Shown here one piece after another: positions 16,207 through 40,289 of a DNA stretch of 64,000 nt. The DNA is taken from the NCBI GenBank assembly GCA_903939115.1, contig CAJAFV010000012.1:1-64000 (forward strand), written 5' to 3'. The stretch is from an uncultured Geobacteraceae bacterium (GTDB taxonomy: Bacteria > Desulfobacterota > Desulfuromonadia > Geobacterales > Pseudopelobacteraceae). Made by a program: the position numbers and the translations under genes. Every line of letters begins with the position of its first letter. The first letter of the stretch is position 1. The notes beneath the pieces were generated by a model that did no database searches, was not told the origin of the DNA, and was given only the letters and a program-made list of their open reading frames with translations.

Positions 16207-16244
16207 AAGAAAGGCCATGCTTTAGAGCATGGCCTTTCTTTTTG
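16207..16244 (+). terminator. Intrinsic terminator after tRNA-Cys
   Basis: A perfect 15-bp inverted repeat, AAGAAAGGCCATGCT (16207-16221) with its complement at 16226-16240, has a 4-base loop and is followed by TTTG. It serves tRNA-Cys and may also stop the convergent cytochrome gene that ends at 16285. Confidence 0.9.
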
Positions 16245-16284: not shown

Positions 16285-16647
16285 CTATTTGGCGTTTTCA
16301 TCCAGCAGATAATTAAGAAGCACAACAACGTCCCGTATTTCCTTCTTATTCATGTCAGAATTCGGCTTACGAAGCATTTTTATTCCATATGCTTTAACCG
16401 CCTGCTTATTAAACGGCTGACCTGTTATAGGCGCCACACCTGTTTGCACAGAGATAACGGTACGTTCCATAGTGTGACACTTGATGCATTTTATCTGCAT
16501 GAGCTCAAAGGCAGGTTTATGTATTTCTGGAATATCGTCGGCATTAAAGTTCATTTTAGCGCCACGTCCGATGACTTTGATTCGCGCTTCTGCGACCGAA
16601 TAGACGGATAATCCTATAAGCACAACCAGCAGTACGTACTTTTTCAT
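16285..16647 (-). CDS. Exported monoheme c-type cytochrome-like protein
   Basis: A 120-residue protein with an N-terminal signal peptide (about residues 1-21) and one heme-binding CIKCH (residues 54-58). Downstream methionines (near 92 and 100) could provide the axial ligand. It is periplasmic by inference. It is the last gene of a - strand cluster with a heme-tagged outer-membrane barrel, a 10-heme lipoprotein and a polytopic membrane protein, so a role as a soluble electron shuttle to that system is plausible. It is not assigned to a named family. Confidence 0.85.
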   Translation of the reverse strand: MKKYVLLVVLIGLSVYSVAEARIKVIGRGAKMNFNADDIPEIHKPAFELMQIKCIKCHTMERTVISVQTGVAPITGQPFNKQAVKAYGIKMLRKPNSDMNKKEIRDVVVLLNYLLDENAK

Positions 16648-16723
16648 AAATACTCCTAAACGGTTTCAATAACTTTTAGAGTATAGCAGAGTAGCTTAAT
16701 TAATCCAGTAAACATTGGAAAAA

Positions 16724-18220
16724 CTAAAAACTAAACGTTGCTCCTACAGTCCCGATCCTGTTTATGACATCCTGTGTAATTTCATATTTGAACTCGGAAG
16801 ACAGCTTAACGTTTTCAAGCGGCGCATATGCGACAGTTCCGACATAACGACGCACATACTTATTTGTAAACAAAGCGGGCAAGTCACCTAATTCCTGCAG
16901 ATAGTCAAAGCGAACGGCAGCGATCAGGTTTGTCCGTAACGTAAACTCACCATCAATGGTGCCCGTTTTAGAAATAACTTTCGGTGTGTAGGAAGATTGT
17001 GTCGGGTCTACATTGCTGTCGCTCCCCCACCCACCAAGCAGACGCAACCTGAATATCTTGTATTGCAGTTCAGTATCAACCCCTACCCTTTCATAGCTGT
17101 TGCGAGGTGTGCCGCTCACACTGGAACCATTTTCACCGTAATATGCATAACTGCCGACTGTGACGGTCAGGAAGTCGAGAATACTCTCTTCTTTGGACAG
17201 ATCAATATCAGTCTCGTTCCCAAGATAATCTACTCCACCAATCTTGTAGGAGATGTGGCCATAGCCTTCCTTGGTGTTCTGCCCCTTGCGGTTAACGATC
17301 CCCCCCGCAACAAACAACCGTCTGGCAAATATGGTATTCAGCTCGATAACATCCTGTGGCTGTTCAATTTTGAAAACAGATTCCTGTCCAACGGTATAGG
17401 AGTACGGCAGATAATTGTTTGTGACTGACAGCTTGTTGTTGGTCTTCCAAAGGCCAAGCTTTGGCTGCATACGCCCGATCTTGAGATTTAGCGGAGTATC
17501 GAGGATGTTACGCATCTGTAAAAACAGCTCGTTGATATCAGTTTTGTTATTTGACGGCATTTCACTCGTATTATAGGTACCGCTTTGTGGCTGCTCGCTA
17601 TAGGCAACATACGTGGCAAAAAAGCCTACTTTCTCGCGAAAGTTTCCGGCTGCGTGCAGCTTGAATGAGCGGGCAGAATAATCAAATTCATTTCCATTAT
17701 TAATATTTCGCTGATCTCCAAAGGCATAGTTAACTGTGCCGGTAAAAGAAATCGGCAAAAGTTCCGGAATGCCTGCCAGCACAAGCCCTTCGGGTTTTAA
17801 ATCGCCCGGACTGTCAATCACAGCTGCAGTATCTGGAGATGTAACGACTGCGACCTGCCCGGCACCGCCGGCAACCATGGCACCGGCTTTAAGCTTATTT
17901 AGTTGATCGGCATCGCCTTCACCCCTTATCTTTACGGCGACCCCGTTAGAGGAACCTGCTGCCGGTTTCTTTGCAGCAGCCGATACAGCAACAACAGGTT
18001 CCTTCTTTTCAGAACTCTTTGCCTTTCCGACATACACGTAGGAATTCTTAAGGAAAACCTCTCCATACTCGTTCAGCTCAGGAGCAATCGTGTGGCAGGT
18101 GGTACACTCAACCTTGTAAGTACGGCTGAAGGCAGGGATAGCGTGGGCAGTGCCAACGGCAACCAATTGTAACGCGCTTAATGTGATGATGCCTGAGAAC
18201 AACCTACGTGTATTACTCAT
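16724..18220 (-). CDS. Outer-membrane beta-barrel protein with N-terminal c-type heme site
   Basis: The start chosen is the ATG at 18220, eight bases after GGGAGGA; a longer frame adds 19 residues before the signal peptide. The 498-residue product has a signal peptide (ending TAHA), then AIPAFSRTYKVECTTCH with one CxxCH, an alanine-rich linker, and a long region of alternating short beta strands ending in aromatic phenylalanine (TFSF), typical of a porin. Porins next to multiheme cytochromes form conduits that carry electrons across the outer membrane in Geobacter. A heme motif on the barrel protein itself is notable. It lies between the 10-heme lipoprotein and the monoheme gene. Confidence 0.82.
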   Translation of the reverse strand: MSNTRRLFSGIITLSALQLVAVGTAHAIPAFSRTYKVECTTCHTIAPELNEYGEVFLKNSYVYVGKAKSSEKKEPVVAVSAAAKKPAAGSSNGVAVKIRGEGDADQLNKLKAGAMVAGGAGQVAVVTSPDTAAVIDSPGDLKPEGLVLAGIPELLPISFTGTVNYAFGDQRNINNGNEFDYSARSFKLHAAGNFREKVGFFATYVAYSEQPQSGTYNTSEMPSNNKTDINELFLQMRNILDTPLNLKIGRMQPKLGLWKTNNKLSVTNNYLPYSYTVGQESVFKIEQPQDVIELNTIFARRLFVAGGIVNRKGQNTKEGYGHISYKIGGVDYLGNETDIDLSKEESILDFLTVTVGSYAYYGENGSSVSGTPRNSYERVGVDTELQYKIFRLRLLGGWGSDSNVDPTQSSYTPKVISKTGTIDGEFTLRTNLIAAVRFDYLQELGDLPALFTNKYVRRYVGTVAYAPLENVKLSSEFKYEITQDVINRIGTVGATFSF

Positions 18221-18261
18221 GAACGAAATCCTCCCTGCATAGCGTAACGATCTATTATTGT

Positions 18262-20295
18262 CTACCATCTGTTGCATACGTTGGAACCGTCGACATAGCC
18301 CTTGCAGAGCCAGTAAAATGCTGCATCTCTGTCAGCCTCGGTGCTGTAGATGGCGTAGTTTTTGTTGACGCTGACACCGTTGATCTCCCCGGACACGACA
18401 TCCACCTTTGTCCAAAGAAAGCCGGGAGGTACCGGCGGATTCGCTGCCGCATTGCCTGTCGGGATCGGTACATTCTTGATGGCCTCGAATACGCTGGCCG
18501 GTCTTGTACCAAATCCCTCCGGGCCATTCTTCAGCCAGTCGATTGAGTCATAGATCAACTGCCGGGCCAGGATCGGGCTGTGGTTGTAGGAGCTCGGTTC
18601 GTTAAAAAGAAATCCATAGTTGTAGCTGGCTCCCATGGTGTAGACGGCCGCCGGCATATTCCCCAGTCCTGGGACCACAGCAGTGCCATAGGTGATATTG
18701 GGAGTAATGTTCGTGTTTGGACCGATCCAGTTGCTGGAGGCCGGCAGTAACTTGGCCAGAATCAGCAGGGATACGCGGATACCCTTGCGCAGCTGCAGGT
18801 TCATCAGATCCGGGGTAAGCGCCGGCTGAAGGGAACCATTGTGGCAATCAGAGCAGACTGCCTGGTTGCTGATGATCTCGGTAATGTCCTGGTTGAGATC
18901 GTCCTGGGTCCAGTTCACCGGCCTGAAGAGGTGTGAATGGATCACGCCGCCAACTGTCTGGGTGGACGGAATCCTTGGCATGTGGCAGGTGATGCAGGGA
19001 CCGTTTCCGTCGGCATTGAGTGCCCTATGAGCAGGGAAGGTCTTGTATCTGGCCTGACTGGTGTAAAAAAGAAAGGCGCTCTTTTCAGCCTCAAGGACGG
19101 CACCGCCGGCAAAATCGTGAATGCTTGGCGCCGAAGGTTTCTTATTAGCGACGATACTCGAGATCAAACCGGGCTCGCTGATCGTCTTACCGGTAGCCCG
19201 ACCGGAGTGGCAGGTCAGACAAAGGTTCGATTTCCCGAGTGTGTCGAAGAGTACCGGGGTCACGGTCTTGAAACCTGGTGATGAGTAGGGGTAATAAATC
19301 TTCACGCCGGTTGTTAGTGCAACCGGTCGCAGCGTGCCACTGTACGAACTGGCATCGGATGAGCGGACATCAAGATGACAGACAGTGCAGTTGGTGGCTT
19401 CGCGGGATGTGTCCTTGTAGGAAAATACCTGGCCGGCAGCATTTACAATCTTACCTGCATTGGGACTGTTTCTGCCGGCAGTGGTATATTCAGGGGCGTT
19501 GCTCCTGAAGCCATTTGGGTCAGGAAGACCGTCGGCACCGACATCAGGAAGAGCATTGACATTCGTAAAGGCGCCTCCGGCAACAAAATTGATGAAGCCG
19601 GTACTCGTGTGGCACCGTACGCAGTAGTTATTGTTACCGAAATTCTGATCCAGCGGGACATTTGTGCCACGACTCTTGCCATCAAGCACTGTTCGCGCCA
19701 ATCCGCGCGTATTGCCATGCCCAGAACCGCTCCATGCTATAAGGTGCTCCCGTCCGAATGAGGTGTCATGGGGATTGTGGCAATTACGGCAGTGTCGTCT
19801 GTTGTTGCTGGAAACATAGTTAGCGCGCAGACCGGTGCTAAAGTGGGTAAAACGAGTTGAGCTGCCGGCTGGAACGCCGTTAGCGGTAACAATCGTTTTA
19901 AAACCATCAGATATTCCGGCTCGCGGATTTGCTTTGTCATGACAAGTGGCGCAGCTGTCACTGGCGTCGGGATTTGTTAGCGGACTGACCGCCGCCAACC
20001 CTACTGAGTGGCATTTGCTGCAAGAGGCGGGGTGCATATAGCCACTGCCGTGGCAATCCTTACAACTGGCACCGTTGGTGGCACTGTTATGTGTCGAGGC
20101 ACTCCATTCGGCCACAACAGAATGCCCACTGCCGGGCGTTTTCCAGTTAGTGCCTTCATGACAACCGATACACGTCTGAGATTCATGCAGGGCGTTGTTT
20201 GCGGCGCCGGGAGCGGAGCCGCCTCCACTGCCACAACCGGAAAGCAAAGCCAGTCCGACTGACAGCATAAAATAAATAATCGGCTTTTGATTCAT
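18262..20295 (-). CDS. Deca-heme c-type cytochrome lipoprotein
   Basis: The start chosen is the ATG at 20295 (CAGGAG upstream), which gives a clean lipoprotein signal with lipobox LLSGC. The 677-residue product contains ten CxxCH heme sites, in order CIGCH, CKDCH, CSKCH, CATCH, CRNCH, CVRCH, CTVCH, CLTCH, CITCH and CSDCH. They lie in the first 480 residues; the last 180 residues lack heme motifs but hold two further cysteines. A lipid-anchored multiheme cytochrome fits a periplasmic or surface face of the outer membrane. It is followed by the heme-tagged barrel, and together they form a candidate electron conduit. Confidence 0.9.
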   Translation of the reverse strand: MNQKPIIYFMLSVGLALLSGCGSGGGSAPGAANNALHESQTCIGCHEGTNWKTPGSGHSVVAEWSASTHNSATNGASCKDCHGSGYMHPASCSKCHSVGLAAVSPLTNPDASDSCATCHDKANPRAGISDGFKTIVTANGVPAGSSTRFTHFSTGLRANYVSSNNRRHCRNCHNPHDTSFGREHLIAWSGSGHGNTRGLARTVLDGKSRGTNVPLDQNFGNNNYCVRCHTSTGFINFVAGGAFTNVNALPDVGADGLPDPNGFRSNAPEYTTAGRNSPNAGKIVNAAGQVFSYKDTSREATNCTVCHLDVRSSDASSYSGTLRPVALTTGVKIYYPYSSPGFKTVTPVLFDTLGKSNLCLTCHSGRATGKTISEPGLISSIVANKKPSAPSIHDFAGGAVLEAEKSAFLFYTSQARYKTFPAHRALNADGNGPCITCHMPRIPSTQTVGGVIHSHLFRPVNWTQDDLNQDITEIISNQAVCSDCHNGSLQPALTPDLMNLQLRKGIRVSLLILAKLLPASSNWIGPNTNITPNITYGTAVVPGLGNMPAAVYTMGASYNYGFLFNEPSSYNHSPILARQLIYDSIDWLKNGPEGFGTRPASVFEAIKNVPIPTGNAAANPPVPPGFLWTKVDVVSGEINGVSVNKNYAIYSTEADRDAAFYWLCKGYVDGSNVCNRW

Positions 20296-20364
20296 GCGAC
20301 AGAACTCCTGAATCCGAAGAAGATTACATCGGACTGCAAAAAGGTGCAAAACACTCGTGTTAAA

Positions 20365-21117
20365 CTATTTCAACAACTTATACATGTAGGTAAATGCGCC
20401 GCCAACCGAAACGCCTGACAAAACACCGGCATAGCGAATTACCTCTCGTGAAAATTCAACTCGTCCCATGTATTCTTCAATATCGGAACTTTCTTCCGTC
20501 ATAAGAGTGATGATATCCTGCCAGTCTTGATCCCACTGATATATCTGCAGATACAAGTCGGCTCCCCGCCACAGGAAAATACAAACAAAAACAATTCCAA
20601 ACGCTATAAAGCCCTTCGAAATATCCGAGTCGCGGATAGTACTGTAGATTTTTCTGATGAGTTCAATATTCACAATACAGAGGAATACCCAAATGGCATT
20701 TTCAACCATTTTAATATTTCTGATTGTATTGGGACTTGGCGTCGGATTGACGATCAGCAAGGCTCCTGATGCTGCAAGAATGCCTAATGCAGTCAAGTAC
20801 ACAATGAGTTTATTTCCCGGCATTTCAAAGGTGCGGCAGAAAACATAATATTCGAGGAACCCGTGGGTTATGGTCATAATCGCCGCTGCGCCGACAATAT
20901 AGTGATATGCGGTAAGTTTTTGGTAATGTGTCCATGGGTTAATACCATACGCCTGACTGAGAAAGATCAAAAAAAAGCCAATCGATATACTTGTCCAGAC
21001 GCGGGCATTACCGACACTGAAGTAAAAGCTGATAGCTCCCGCCACCCCCCAGGAAATCACCTTAACTAGCTCAAACGGATTCATTTGGGACAACAACTCT
21101 AAAAATTTATCCATCAT
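20365..21117 (-). CDS. Polytopic inner-membrane protein, unknown function
   Basis: A 250-residue protein with about six hydrophobic segments (roughly residues 17-35, 42-58, 70-90, 103-122, 138-155 and 170-188) and a final one near 230. Several histidines lie in or near the helices (HYQ, HYIVG, THGF), but I see no certified heme-b or quinone motif. It is 24 bp after the preceding regulator-like gene and about 70 bp before the deca-heme lipoprotein. An inner-membrane electron-entry or signalling role is possible. I do not recognise the family. Confidence 0.7.
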   Translation of the reverse strand: MMDKFLELLSQMNPFELVKVISWGVAGAISFYFSVGNARVWTSISIGFFLIFLSQAYGINPWTHYQKLTAYHYIVGAAAIMTITHGFLEYYVFCRTFEMPGNKLIVYLTALGILAASGALLIVNPTPSPNTIRNIKMVENAIWVFLCIVNIELIRKIYSTIRDSDISKGFIAFGIVFVCIFLWRGADLYLQIYQWDQDWQDIITLMTEESSDIEEYMGRVEFSREVIRYAGVLSGVSVGGAFTYMYKLLK

Positions 21118-21141
21118 ATACTCCAGCTCGCAGCAATATAA

Positions 21142-22107
21142 TTAAAACTCAGAGTCGACACCTGTTAATGCAGAAGAAAGTCTTTCCATCATCACCTTAC
21201 TATTCGTTCCGCTGACAAGAAGTTTTGCAGTACGCTCTATGCCCTTCATGAACTTCTCCGCTCTATCGGCATCAACCAGACACGAATTGCCGCCGTTATC
21301 AGAAATTTCCTTGTCAACAATACCACGACCAATCCTGCCAACAGAGTCGACAACTATCGACTTAACCATCTCTTCCAATTCAGCAAGCTGCTGCGACACA
21401 ATTATTTTGGCGAGTTCCTGGCTTTCGGTATCTGTTATATTGATCACCGATTTGTGAAGAGCAACGCAGGCGTCCCAGATTTCTTGAACGTTTATAAATT
21501 CAAGCAGGTTCGCTTCCGCCAATTCGCTCGCATTTTTTGTTGAAAACAGATCAATTTTTGCACCGGGCATTCCTGCTATTTTCTGTGTTTCAGTGGGTGA
21601 CGTTTCTATTTCTCTGTCTCCGTCATGAAAGAAACCGAGGGGATTGCCCTCTTTATAAAAAACAATGGCTGTATGCTCATCCGTAAATATGCGCAGGCAG
21701 CCATTCATTTTATCAATTTTTATTTTTTCATGGATGGCGTTTATATCAATCAGCGTAAGATTCTGGTCTTTACAAAGCGGTTCTCCTTCCAGCAGAGCAT
21801 AAAAACACATAGTAAGGTCTTTGGAAAGCGTATAGACATTAAGAGCCCCGCTTCCCGTCGTAACCATTGATTCAGCCAGTGATGAGAGAGCCTGAAAACC
21901 GGACTCACGCATGCTGTTTTCATCTTCTACAAGGGCACTGAAGAGTCTTCCGGCCTCAAAAACCAGGACAGCAGTGCTGGTCTGAAAGACGAAGCTTGCA
22001 TATCCGGTGAAAGAACCGTTTCTCAGCTTCGCTATAATGTCCGGGAGCTTCAGCTTCGAAACCGCCATATTTTCAAATAGGGGGTTGCCCTTGGGGAGAA
22101 GGAGCAT
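21142..22107 (-). CDS. DUF4388/PATAN-like protein, unknown function
   Basis: The ATG at 22107 follows TGGAGA; a TTG one codon earlier is possible. The 321-residue product begins with a segment (LKLPDIIAKLRNGSFTGYAS, then AVLVFEAGRLFSALVED) like the DUF4388/PATAN domains often found near MglA GTPases and two-component systems in deltaproteobacteria. A second similar half (GCLRIFTDEHTAIVFYKEGNPLGFF) lies near residues 140-165, so the protein may carry two such domains. The C-terminus is helical. It heads the cytochrome cluster and may regulate it; both points are inference. Confidence 0.65.
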   Translation of the reverse strand: MLLLPKGNPLFENMAVSKLKLPDIIAKLRNGSFTGYASFVFQTSTAVLVFEAGRLFSALVEDENSMRESGFQALSSLAESMVTTGSGALNVYTLSKDLTMCFYALLEGEPLCKDQNLTLIDINAIHEKIKIDKMNGCLRIFTDEHTAIVFYKEGNPLGFFHDGDREIETSPTETQKIAGMPGAKIDLFSTKNASELAEANLLEFINVQEIWDACVALHKSVINITDTESQELAKIIVSQQLAELEEMVKSIVVDSVGRIGRGIVDKEISDNGGNSCLVDADRAEKFMKGIERTAKLLVSGTNSKVMMERLSSALTGVDSEF

Positions 22108-38033: not shown

Positions 38034-40289
38034 ATGTTCAGAAAAAGTCTCGTTATAGTGACCTTATTATTTGCCATGATTCCAACTGTAGCTTCTGCTG
38101 CTTCGTGGAGCCTCAACACCTGGGTTAAATCAGGTGGTGGCAGTATTGTAGTGCGCGGTGGTACGCCACAGACCTCTGCCAACGGCTCTGTTTTCAAAAC
38201 CTACACAACCAGTAAAGCTTTCAACGTAACAGTCTCTCCCAACACCGGATATTCGGCCAGCCAAGTAACCTACAACACTGTCGTCACATCCAATCCCAGC
38301 CAGACAACGTACACGGTTCAAGGTCCCGCTTCCCAGAAAGTCTTTGCCACGTTTTCCCCGCAATTGCTGACGGTGACCGCGTCAACCAATACCGGCGGAT
38401 CGGTGAATCTCTCCAGCATAAGTGGCATATATTACGGGGCAAAGCTTTCCTCCGCGAAAAAGTTCACCTTTACCCCGAGTCCGGCAACATCAAGAGTGGA
38501 AAACATCGACGGGGTTCCTGCCGGGGCTACGGTGAGCCATACGTTACCTGCTTCTGCCAACACGGCGGTAACTGTCACCTTACCGGTCGGCTTCACCTTC
38601 ACATCTAACATCGCCCTCTACGGGACATTTTCCGGAGCTCCAGTTGCCAAAACAACTTCATCGCAGATAGTAAGTCCCGGAATGCTGACTACCCTTGACG
38701 GCAGTTCCAGCACCGGCTTCCCTTCCAGCTTTGCCTGGAGTCAAACCAGCGGCCCTTCGATACCTATCACCAATGCTAATGCTGCTGTTGCATCTTTTAC
38801 CCCTGCCGTAGTGGGCACTTACTCCTTCACCCTCACCATCACCGGTGGCTCGACCGCGTTAACAACGGTTACCGTCACAGATGACATTACCGGTGTAATC
38901 CGCTCACAATGCCAAAACTGTCATGCAGGCAACGGGATAGGGCCCAATGTCTTTGCGAACTGGTCTTCCTCACCGCACCGGGTAAAGAAAGTAATCTGCT
39001 CTCAGTGTCATATCGGGGCCAATACCGGCGGACATCCCGGACAGCTCACCAGCGGCTCGGTCAGCGAGACCACCTTTAACTACAATGCTTCTTTTGGCTC
39101 CGGAAATTTCTGCAGCACCTGCCATAACCCAGCCATAATTTCCGATTTTACTGCCAGCAAGCATTACGGACCGGCCGGCACTGCTTCCTGCAGCTTCTGC
39201 CATGTACAGGGTGTGCACAACCCGGCTGCTGCATGTATTAACTGTCATAACCCCGGCAATCCTCTTGGACTCCCCTGGCCGCCGACTGGAATGAATTTCC
39301 ACGATGAATATACCGGCACAAACCTCTGCACAACCTGTCATAACAAGCACTCGACTTCCGTAAGCGGCTGTGGCAACTGTCATGACAACCCTCCGGCCAC
39401 CGCTTCCCACTTGAAGCATTTTGGCAGCACTACTGTTGTATCAGGTTACGGTGATCTTCGCATTACAGGCGCTTTTACCAACTACAGCAGCGGTTATGTT
39501 TTCGGCTGTGGTAACTGCCATCCCATGGATATCTCTAAACATAAAAACGGTGTAGTAGACGTGGAACTATACAACTCTCTGGCGACAGCCGGGTCGATAA
39601 AAGCCCGCAACCCTGCTTCTGCAGGGTATGTAGCCGGTTCAGAGACGTTTACCGACTCAAAAGGAGTGGCCTATACCAAAGGAAAATGCAGTAACGTCTA
39701 CTGCCACAGCTACAATGAATCAGCGACAACAGCGACTATCGGCGACGGAGAATCAAACTGGGAAGCAAAGGTTGTTACCACCAGAATTTACAAAACTGTC
39801 ACCTGGGGCAGCAGTGCCCTCGGCTGTGCCGGCTGCCACGGCAATCCGACACAGACAACCTCTCTCACTAACGATGGCGGTGCAGGAGACAGCCACTCAT
39901 GGATAGACAGCCAGGGCTATCAGAATCTGCATACCTATAATATGGGCGGTGACCCTGTAAGCTGTAAATTCTGCCACAATGATACAGTCAAGCAGTTGAA
40001 CAGCTACACAACAGACGGCATGGGCGTAAGAACTCTCAGCGCTGTGCCAATCAGCAATTTTTCCAAGCACGTAAACGGCAACAACGATGTGGCATTCGAT
40101 ACACAAAATCCCTTTGTCTACAAGACATACTATAGCGGCGATGTTTCCAGAAGCCTCGCCGGAGCAACATATGCTCCAGAGACAAAAACCTGCTCGAATG
40201 TATCATGTCACCGCGAACAGACCGTCGTTAAATGGGGAACACCGTACCGCTGGTACTACAATGAGTGTAACGTTTGCCACAGTTACTAA
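38034..40289 (+). CDS. Exported multiheme c-type cytochrome (11 CxxCH + 2 CxxxxCH) with N-terminal Ig-like domains
   Basis: A 751-residue protein with a signal peptide (ending ASAAS) and AAAAGGAGAAG ahead of the ATG. Residues about 25-285 form beta-rich surface-type domains, the last resembling a PKD fold (LDGSSSTGFPSSFAWSQTSG, then GTYSFTLTITGG). From residue 290 on there are eleven CxxCH motifs plus two CxxxxCH motifs (CSNVYCH, CSNVSCH), each followed by a CxxCH. The paired CxxxxCH/CxxCH arrangement is a domain seen in Geobacter multiheme cytochromes. It is probably a secreted or surface electron carrier. The riboswitch upstream suggests second-messenger control. Confidence 0.92.
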   Translation: MFRKSLVIVTLLFAMIPTVASAASWSLNTWVKSGGGSIVVRGGTPQTSANGSVFKTYTTSKAFNVTVSPNTGYSASQVTYNTVVTSNPSQTTYTVQGPASQKVFATFSPQLLTVTASTNTGGSVNLSSISGIYYGAKLSSAKKFTFTPSPATSRVENIDGVPAGATVSHTLPASANTAVTVTLPVGFTFTSNIALYGTFSGAPVAKTTSSQIVSPGMLTTLDGSSSTGFPSSFAWSQTSGPSIPITNANAAVASFTPAVVGTYSFTLTITGGSTALTTVTVTDDITGVIRSQCQNCHAGNGIGPNVFANWSSSPHRVKKVICSQCHIGANTGGHPGQLTSGSVSETTFNYNASFGSGNFCSTCHNPAIISDFTASKHYGPAGTASCSFCHVQGVHNPAAACINCHNPGNPLGLPWPPTGMNFHDEYTGTNLCTTCHNKHSTSVSGCGNCHDNPPATASHLKHFGSTTVVSGYGDLRITGAFTNYSSGYVFGCGNCHPMDISKHKNGVVDVELYNSLATAGSIKARNPASAGYVAGSETFTDSKGVAYTKGKCSNVYCHSYNESATTATIGDGESNWEAKVVTTRIYKTVTWGSSALGCAGCHGNPTQTTSLTNDGGAGDSHSWIDSQGYQNLHTYNMGGDPVSCKFCHNDTVKQLNSYTTDGMGVRTLSAVPISNFSKHVNGNNDVAFDTQNPFVYKTYYSGDVSRSLAGATYAPETKTCSNVSCHREQTVVKWGTPYRWYYNECNVCHSY

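Follow-up and report, generated by a model that had tools for sequence, protein, structure and literature searches.

The stretch of DNA analysed here (the window) comprises 64,000 nucleotides of contig CAJAFV010000012.1 from an uncultured Geobacteraceae bacterium (GenBank assembly GCA_903939115.1, 4.76 Mb in 99 contigs), and it carries on its minus strand, at positions 16285-22107, a cluster of five genes that probably builds an outer-membrane electron path using a heme-carrying pore protein. Judged by its sequence, the pore protein is a Cyc2-like cytochrome-porin whose heme domain is related to that of Cyc2-type proteins; its gene lies between those of a decaheme lipoprotein and a monoheme c-type cytochrome. 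We favour, at a probability of roughly 0.6, an outer-membrane electron-transfer module in which electrons would pass from the monoheme cytochrome to the barrel heme, then to the decaheme protein and to an acceptor outside the cell. A sequence-only reading of the window had proposed an electron conduit with a heme on the barrel, and the five genes lie where that reading placed them; the proposal is still the best interpretation of the cluster, although heme-bearing barrels as such turn out to be known already (Cyc2-type proteins and, as a prediction, GM18_3465). The novelty appears to lie in the three-protein set, in which the heme barrel is usually paired with a ten-heme lipoprotein. The features at the core of the cluster are:

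18262..20295, minus strand: decaheme lipoprotein, 677 residues, with ten CXXCH motifs and lipobox Cys21 (sequence and alignment)
20233..20235, minus strand: lipobox cysteine codon (LLSGC), Cys21 in 37/37 rows of alignment A5
16724..18220, minus strand: Cyc2-like cytochrome-porin, precursor of 498 residues (alignment, hhalign, AlphaFold, fold comparison)
18140..18220, minus strand: signal peptide of the barrel protein, with cleavage inferred after AHA from conserved -1/-3 residues in 41 sequences
17996..18139, minus strand: N-terminal heme mini-domain (IPAFSRTYKVECTTCHTIAPELNEYGEVFLKN...) and start of the linker (hhalign to Cyc2-type proteins)
18092..18106, minus strand: CTTCH heme-binding motif, with C39, C42 and H43 in 41/41
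16730..17752, minus strand: predicted 16-stranded beta-barrel (AlphaFold; nearest fold OprP, 2o4v)
16285..16647, minus strand: monoheme c-type cytochrome with a signal peptide and no lipobox (CIKCH, Met91 and Met99 invariant in 40/40)

The precursor of the barrel protein consists, in order, of a signal peptide ending in AHA, the segment IPAFSRTYKVECTTCHTIAPELNEYG, a linker rich in lysine and alanine, and the barrel; the mature protein, expected to begin Ile-Pro-Ala-Phe, has a calculated mass of 51,535 Da before addition of heme (616 Da). In an alignment of the window protein with 40 homologs (A1, 41 sequences), both cysteines and the histidine of the CXXCH motif are present in every sequence and stand at a constant distance from the end of the signal peptide, which argues that the motif has not arisen by chance and suggests, from the sequences, that heme is attached to the barrel protein. 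As had been read from the window, the protein combines a single motif (CTTCH) with a barrel, of 16 strands as predicted by AlphaFold (mean predicted local distance difference test score, pLDDT, 65; predicted template-modelling score, pTM, 0.64). The closest folds found by VIA-align are OprP (Z 27.3, root-mean-square deviation 3.2 over 317 aligned residues) and OprO (Z 27.1, 3.0 over 308 residues), followed further down by OprB (Z 25.0) and general porins (Z 23-25); Foldseek ranks a general porin first and OprP sixth, and the barrel profile also matches OprO (4rjw) by sequence (E 0.0011).

Barrel matches were found in 59 of the 98 genomes searched, the window's own included, and are short and weak in four of these (G004, G030, G071 and G078). 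A class-wide search matched 84 of 277 genomes; outside the order there are two strong matches (G191 and G192, of one genus) and one weak match (G161). Two named loci from the barrel search belong to metagenome-assembled genomes of Desulfuromonadales. At locus L110 (6911-8493, genome G265) the barrel gene is split over two overlapping frames, with the other four genes adjoining; this may reflect a frameshift or an error in sequencing, or heme domain and barrel may be naturally separate there.

Heme-bearing barrels are known from the Cyc2-type cytochrome-porins of iron oxidisers (PMC8406198). Cyc2 is a demonstrated iron oxidase defined by the motif AXPXFAR[Q/K][T/Y], sequences lacking PXFAR[Q/K][T/Y] having been screened out; its poorly conserved porin part has been modelled on OprO and OprP, with the plug heme at its mouth on the periplasmic side and dissolved Fe(II) entering the pore (PMC8406198). 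The window barrel shares with Cyc2 the signal peptide, the single CXXCH in a short N-terminal domain, the PXL that follows it (PEL in the window) and a predicted 16-stranded OprO/OprP-like barrel. Where the strict Cyc2 motif would be expected, it reads AIPAFSRTY. The strict motif occurs in none of the 41 aligned barrels, its second alanine being replaced by serine (23) or threonine (18), such that the family has AIPAF[S/T]R in place of AXPXFAR; for this reason we call it Cyc2-like and not Cyc2. The family also differs from Cyc2 in the linker between heme domain and first strand (33-105 residues, median 71), in its decaheme lipoprotein neighbour and in its Desulfuromonadales-type hosts.

For a direct comparison, Cyc2 was represented by three plasmid proteins (from Caballeronia, Methylocystis and Paraburkholderia) identified by motif only and taken from the four records, each weak (E 0.01 to 2), of a plasmid search. 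Aligned by hhalign, the heme domains alone matched these Cyc2-type proteins at 99% (E 7.9e-18, 40 columns), and whole profiles matched at 98% over 48 columns in the heme-domain region. Five controls, in which either side was set against the monoheme or decaheme profiles, gave 54.1, 19.2, 6.5, 11.5 and 59.2%, with alignments spanning 8 to 19 columns around CXXCH; barrel-only profiles of the window family and the Cyc2-type proteins reached 14%, with no alignment. The barrels of loci L105 and L106 (genomes G191 and G192) carry the exact Cyc2 motif, AIPAFARQY, and are 30% identical to the window barrel, thereby tying the window family and Cyc2 together.

Related heme domains were seen in other settings as well. 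Two short frames (L107, 2974-3726, 251 residues; L108, 2542-3360, 273 residues) have the same heme mini-domain and cleavage spacing, followed by a charged tail unlike the barrel, so the mini-domain may be a module that extends beyond porins. Two further frames (L111, 2735-4237; L112, 3077-4360) join the mini-domain to porin-like C-terminal parts with short, weak matches to the window family, and are possibly more Cyc2-like lineages in the same order.

Conservation of gene neighbourhood was examined in 40 homologous loci, taken from the 55 genomes (window included) with a substantial barrel match; L002, a copy of L035, was omitted. In 38 of the 40 loci a multiheme gene that matches the decaheme gene lies within 4.5 kb of the barrel gene (in two of them with 12-13 CxxCH motifs), the monoheme gene lies within that range in 39, and both are present in 37; the locus without a monoheme gene (L069) and one of those without a decaheme gene (L059) are at contig ends. 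All genes are co-directional in some loci, and in others the decaheme gene is divergent from the barrel gene; that the genes stay together despite such rearrangement points to a shared role. A barrel match is lacking in five genomes from the family of the window (G011, G022, G025, which is only 66% complete, G042 and G045); in these, genes for the DUF4388-like protein, the membrane protein and the monoheme cytochrome adjoin, and neither a decaheme nor a barrel gene lies between or beside them in the stretches examined. Decaheme and barrel are thus mostly present or absent together here (L067, described below, is an exception), and mostly behave as an outer-membrane module set on an inner core.

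The decaheme protein of the window has ten CxxCH motifs and a lipobox (LLSGC), in line with the decaheme lipoprotein that had been read from the window. In an alignment of 37 rows (A5), the Cys, Cys and His columns of all ten motifs and the lipobox cysteine are occupied throughout, and another nine histidines are candidate distal ligands by their conservation (six in 37/37, the others in 35, 34 and 31 of 37). The alignment omits L059 and L067, in which no decaheme gene was found, and L057 and L058, whose genes have 12-13 hemes and lie 1.3 kb away; at L048 a nearer ten-heme gene was used in place of the best BLAST match. The first motif after the lipobox is CX4CH in L037, L038, L054, L062, L063 and some others, and counts of 8-9 CxxCH therefore miss one or more further likely heme sites. 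The structural model (pTM 0.75) is nearest by VIA-align to OcwA (6i5b, Z 11.2), followed by a Carboxydothermus undecaheme protein (9.6) and NrfA (6.5-7.4). Pfam C552 matches 3 of the 37 members. The monoheme cytochrome, likewise called from the window beforehand, has CIKCH as its heme motif, which holds its only two cysteines; the CXXCH and two methionines are kept in 40 of 40 sequences (window included). Its identity with a solved cytochrome was rejected, as a search of the PDB gave no match up to E 10.

In the mechanism we favour, the periplasmic monoheme cytochrome would give electrons to the single N-terminal heme of the barrel protein, the heme domain would plug or enter the 16-stranded OprP-like barrel from the periplasmic side, and the ten-heme lipoprotein would dock on the barrel and reduce an acceptor outside the cell. 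The membrane protein and the DUF4388-like protein, which within the window's family are often encoded in the operon, may feed or control the monoheme cytochrome. With a decaheme partner and a linker of this kind, the plug may sit deeper, or the lipoprotein may reach in. The outward direction is proposed on the ground that the hosts resemble relatives of Geobacter. Surface exposure and docking of the decaheme protein, the path of the electrons, the acceptor and what the membrane protein does are inferred as well.

Several observations weigh against this mechanism. A lone heme cannot span the membrane, and a heme at the periplasmic mouth leaves a gap for the decaheme protein to close; the heme domain is itself poorly modelled by AlphaFold (pLDDT 31-44). 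The comparison with Cyc2 rests on three motif-bearing proteins, none of them an experimentally studied Cyc2. The likeness of the decaheme fold to OcwA is moderate, and Foldseek alone returned nothing significant for this protein (best E 0.13). On whether the decaheme protein is of the MtrC type the tools diverge: the NCBIfam OmcA/MtrC model TIGR03507 falls far under its cut-off (19.1 bits versus 209.3), the Pfam MtrC II/IV domain passes its own in the window protein (39.5 versus 30) and matches 25 of the 37 members, and VIA-align puts OcwA first. The linkage also has gaps: L067, in the window's genus and not at a contig end, has barrel and monoheme genes with no multiheme gene in range, and at L105 and L106, in another order, barrel and monoheme genes are accompanied by no open reading frame with at least two CxxCH motifs in 14 kb, which may mean that barrel and monoheme cytochrome are the older pair. 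Finally, the DUF4388-like and membrane-protein genes adjoin the cluster in 16 of the 40 loci, none outside the window's family, and are thus not needed for the module.

A manner of working like that of Cyc2, in which dissolved metal ions would enter the pore and exchange electrons with the plug heme, and electrons would flow inward to the monoheme cytochrome, with the decaheme protein as an accessory, we judge unlikely, for all that the heme domain is related, the porin fold is the one modelled for Cyc2 and Cyc2 oxidises iron (PMC8406198). Loci L105 and L106, with the exact Cyc2 motif, an adjoining monoheme gene and no decaheme gene, would suit such an inward flow, as would L067. Opposed to it are the decaheme gene that accompanies the barrel gene in 38 of 40 loci, the absence of the strict motif from all 41 aligned barrels, and the origin of the two named loci in metagenome-assembled genomes of Desulfuromonadales, which are known for metal reduction.

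The likeness of the decaheme protein to OcwA and NrfA, together with NrfA-type chains among its sequence matches (E 1e-4 to 0.04), raises the alternative that it serves as an enzyme, supplied with electrons across the outer membrane, whose soluble substrate would be nitrite, hydroxylamine or another oxyanion; OcwA itself reduces nitrite, hydroxylamine and iron oxide (PMC6703420). We consider this improbable: the two best sequence matches (E 1.8e-6 and 2.1e-5) belong to other multiheme cytochromes, such matches are driven in part by CXXCH, and all ten conserved motifs end in histidine (the catalytic CXXCK of NrfA was not searched for). Very improbable is a solute porin in which the heme domain would serve as a redox gate or sensor with no electron path through the membrane. 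It would suit the role of OprP and OprO as porins for phosphate, the single heme, which is not enough to make a wire, and a possible regulatory function of the DUF4388-like protein and the membrane protein; it is opposed by the linkage of both decaheme lipoprotein and monoheme cytochrome to the barrel in 37 of the 40 loci.

In its 16 predicted strands and its monoheme periplasmic cytochrome, the cluster departs from the Omc and Ext conduits, and also from Mtr. With the Pcc conduits OmbB-OmaB-OmcB, ExtABCD, ExtEFG and ExtHIJKL it has in common an integral barrel and a redox lipoprotein encoded in one cluster. The Pcc conduits of Geobacter are, however, defined by a periplasmic multiheme cytochrome, and for the Ext barrels 18-21 strands are predicted and no heme is described in the available parts of the sources (PMC6148476, PMC4245776); the window barrel has 16 and a heme motif, and within the cluster no periplasmic multiheme cytochrome was found, only the monoheme cytochrome and the lipobox-bearing decaheme protein. 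MtrCAB, MtoAB and PioAB likewise transfer electrons across the outer membrane with a decaheme protein, in their case through a 26-stranded barrel around a decaheme wire (PMC8406198), compared with 16 predicted strands here. Assignment of the barrel to the Pcc/Ext or MtrB-type porins was rejected on its strand number and monoheme periplasmic partner; a search of the window's own genome with TIGR03509 (MtrB) gave no match and is uninformative, as the control genomes gave none either. OmpJ, a porin without apparent redox groups in the available description (PMC1186022), was rejected on that description.

Other relatives resemble the cluster in part. GM18_3465 of Geobacter sp. M18 is, like the window protein, predicted to be an outer-membrane barrel with heme motifs of its own; its ten motifs lie in external loops, it has 21 predicted trans-membrane segments, and the part of the source at hand describes no N-terminal mini-domain (PMC4245776). 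OcwA of Thermincola potens, the nearest solved decaheme fold by VIA-align, is a multiheme reductase of the cell surface that has a helix bundle at its C-terminus, differing from the window protein in its nine hemes and its place in a Gram-positive cell wall (PMC6703420). PCC3 and PCC4 also combine a barrel, multiheme cytochromes and an inner-membrane protein; the PCC3 cytochromes have medians of 34 and 21 heme sites, and the inner-membrane proteins of PCC3 and PCC4 have two conserved WX3HX13H motifs, as against one His pair (H72, H85) in the window's protein (PMC5566968).

These comparisons bear on two further points raised by the sequence-only reading. Its suggestion that the barrel heme replaces one of the periplasmic Pcc cytochromes fits poorly, because the 16 predicted strands are few to surround a multiheme wire and because the only other cytochromes in the cluster are a monoheme protein without lipobox and a decaheme lipoprotein. 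As for whether the cluster belongs to a known conduit family, which that reading had left to be checked, the barrel is of a known kind, and no description of barrel, decaheme and monoheme proteins as a set was found in the literature searched (subscription papers and preprints were outside the search).

The remaining features of the cluster and its surroundings are:

21142..22107, minus strand: DUF4388-like protein, whose gene opens the likely operon (PF14332 at 21.9 bits, under the cut-off of 25)
20365..21117, minus strand: multi-pass membrane protein (hydropathy; invariant His72 and His85)
20305..20309, minus strand: Shine-Dalgarno sequence AGGAG of the decaheme gene (read in the sequence)
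18230..18236, minus strand: Shine-Dalgarno sequence AGGGAGG of the barrel gene (read in the sequence)
16207..16240, plus strand: strong hairpin of 15 pairs, located between the cluster's 3' end and tRNA-Cys, with its T-run on the plus strand

The five genes are co-oriented, with gaps of 24 to 76 bases from each stop to the likely next start, and an operon is therefore likely. Two starts were corrected from the Shine-Dalgarno sequence and signal peptide, that of the barrel gene to 18220 (open reading frame start upstream at 18277) and that of the decaheme gene to 20295 (open reading frame start upstream at 20349). A tRNA-Cys gene is convergent with the cluster, and the hairpin between them may terminate transcription arriving from one side or from both. 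A promoter scan gave 4 matches, compared with 8.8 in shuffled sequence. Elsewhere in the window, a second multiheme protein of 751 residues is encoded at 38034-40289 on the plus strand, with a signal peptide, about 11 CxxCH motifs and, in addition, longer-spaced Cys...CysHis motifs.

The two upstream genes agree with what had been read from the window, a regulator-like gene being the DUF4388-like one and an inner-membrane protein the multi-pass one. The membrane protein has no Pfam or NCBIfam match; its hydropathy shows six partly overlapping hydrophobic segments, and an alignment of 10 sequences (A3) has a single invariant His pair, His72 and His85, for which reason its assignment to the di-heme b cytochromes of the PCC3/PCC4 type was rejected. 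Both genes are a family-level addition to the cluster; a seventeenth membrane-protein gene is cut by a contig end. In genome G042 a second DUF4388-like gene (L117, 9372-10379), 35% identical to that of the window, lies 4 kb past the operon end.

A more tentative proposal, which we regard as doubtful, is that the Cyc2-like porin and OcwA-like decaheme protein would form an overlooked conduit found throughout the order, and that the mini-domain heme, in Cyc2 as well, would be ligated by the histidine of its motif and the alpha-amine of the mature N-terminus. The Cyc2 signature would in that case be a motif of cleavage site plus ligand, its first alanine being position -1 for signal peptidase. 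In all 41 barrels the cleavage site has alanine at -1 and proline at +2, with alanine (30), serine (8) or valine (3) at -3, and the cleavage alanine stands exactly 12 residues before the first cysteine, leaving 11 between cleavage and cysteine. The same alanine and spacing recur in 10 of 10 other proteins, five of the barrel family (L105, L106, L110, L113 and L114) and five more distant, two of which are short and without a barrel, and are shared by the three plasmid Cyc2-type proteins. The mini-domain alignment (A4, 28 of 44 heme domains) has P2, F4, R6, C12, C15, H16, P20, E21, G26 and F29 as invariant residues and contains no invariant His, Met, Lys or Cys beyond CXXCH.

The N-terminal amine is a heme ligand in cytochrome f, the sequence of which starts Tyr-Pro-Ile-Phe; in common with the mini-domain it has a mature N-terminus of the form X-P-x-F ahead of CXXCH, with about nine residues more between the N-terminus and the first cysteine. 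Cytochrome f was rejected as a homolog of the heme domain: it is absent among the PDB profile matches up to E 10, and any likeness would therefore be convergence. Against N-terminal ligation, the mini-domain may simply start at the cleavage site, the five distant proteins lack Pro2, and His322 (39/41), Lys259 and Lys326 (both 41/41) of the barrel could act as ligands. The AlphaFold model is too weak at the N-terminus to judge the matter, the published Cyc2 spectrum (Soret 410 nm) does not decide the ligand, and no mention of an N-terminal ligand in Cyc2 was found within the same literature search.

The cluster may be of interest beyond its own family. A mutant of G. sulfurreducens without all five known conduit clusters keeps some electrode activity, which its authors read as evidence for further undiscovered trans-membrane mechanisms (PMC6148476). 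The conserved pair of Cyc2-like porin and decaheme lipoprotein, which occurs in that order of bacteria, would be a concrete candidate for such a mechanism if G. sulfurreducens has it. The Cyc2 architecture would thereby extend into the relatives of Geobacter, where Cyc2-type matches should not be taken as a sign of iron oxidation without tests; and the prediction of an N-terminal ligand, if true, would cover every Cyc2.

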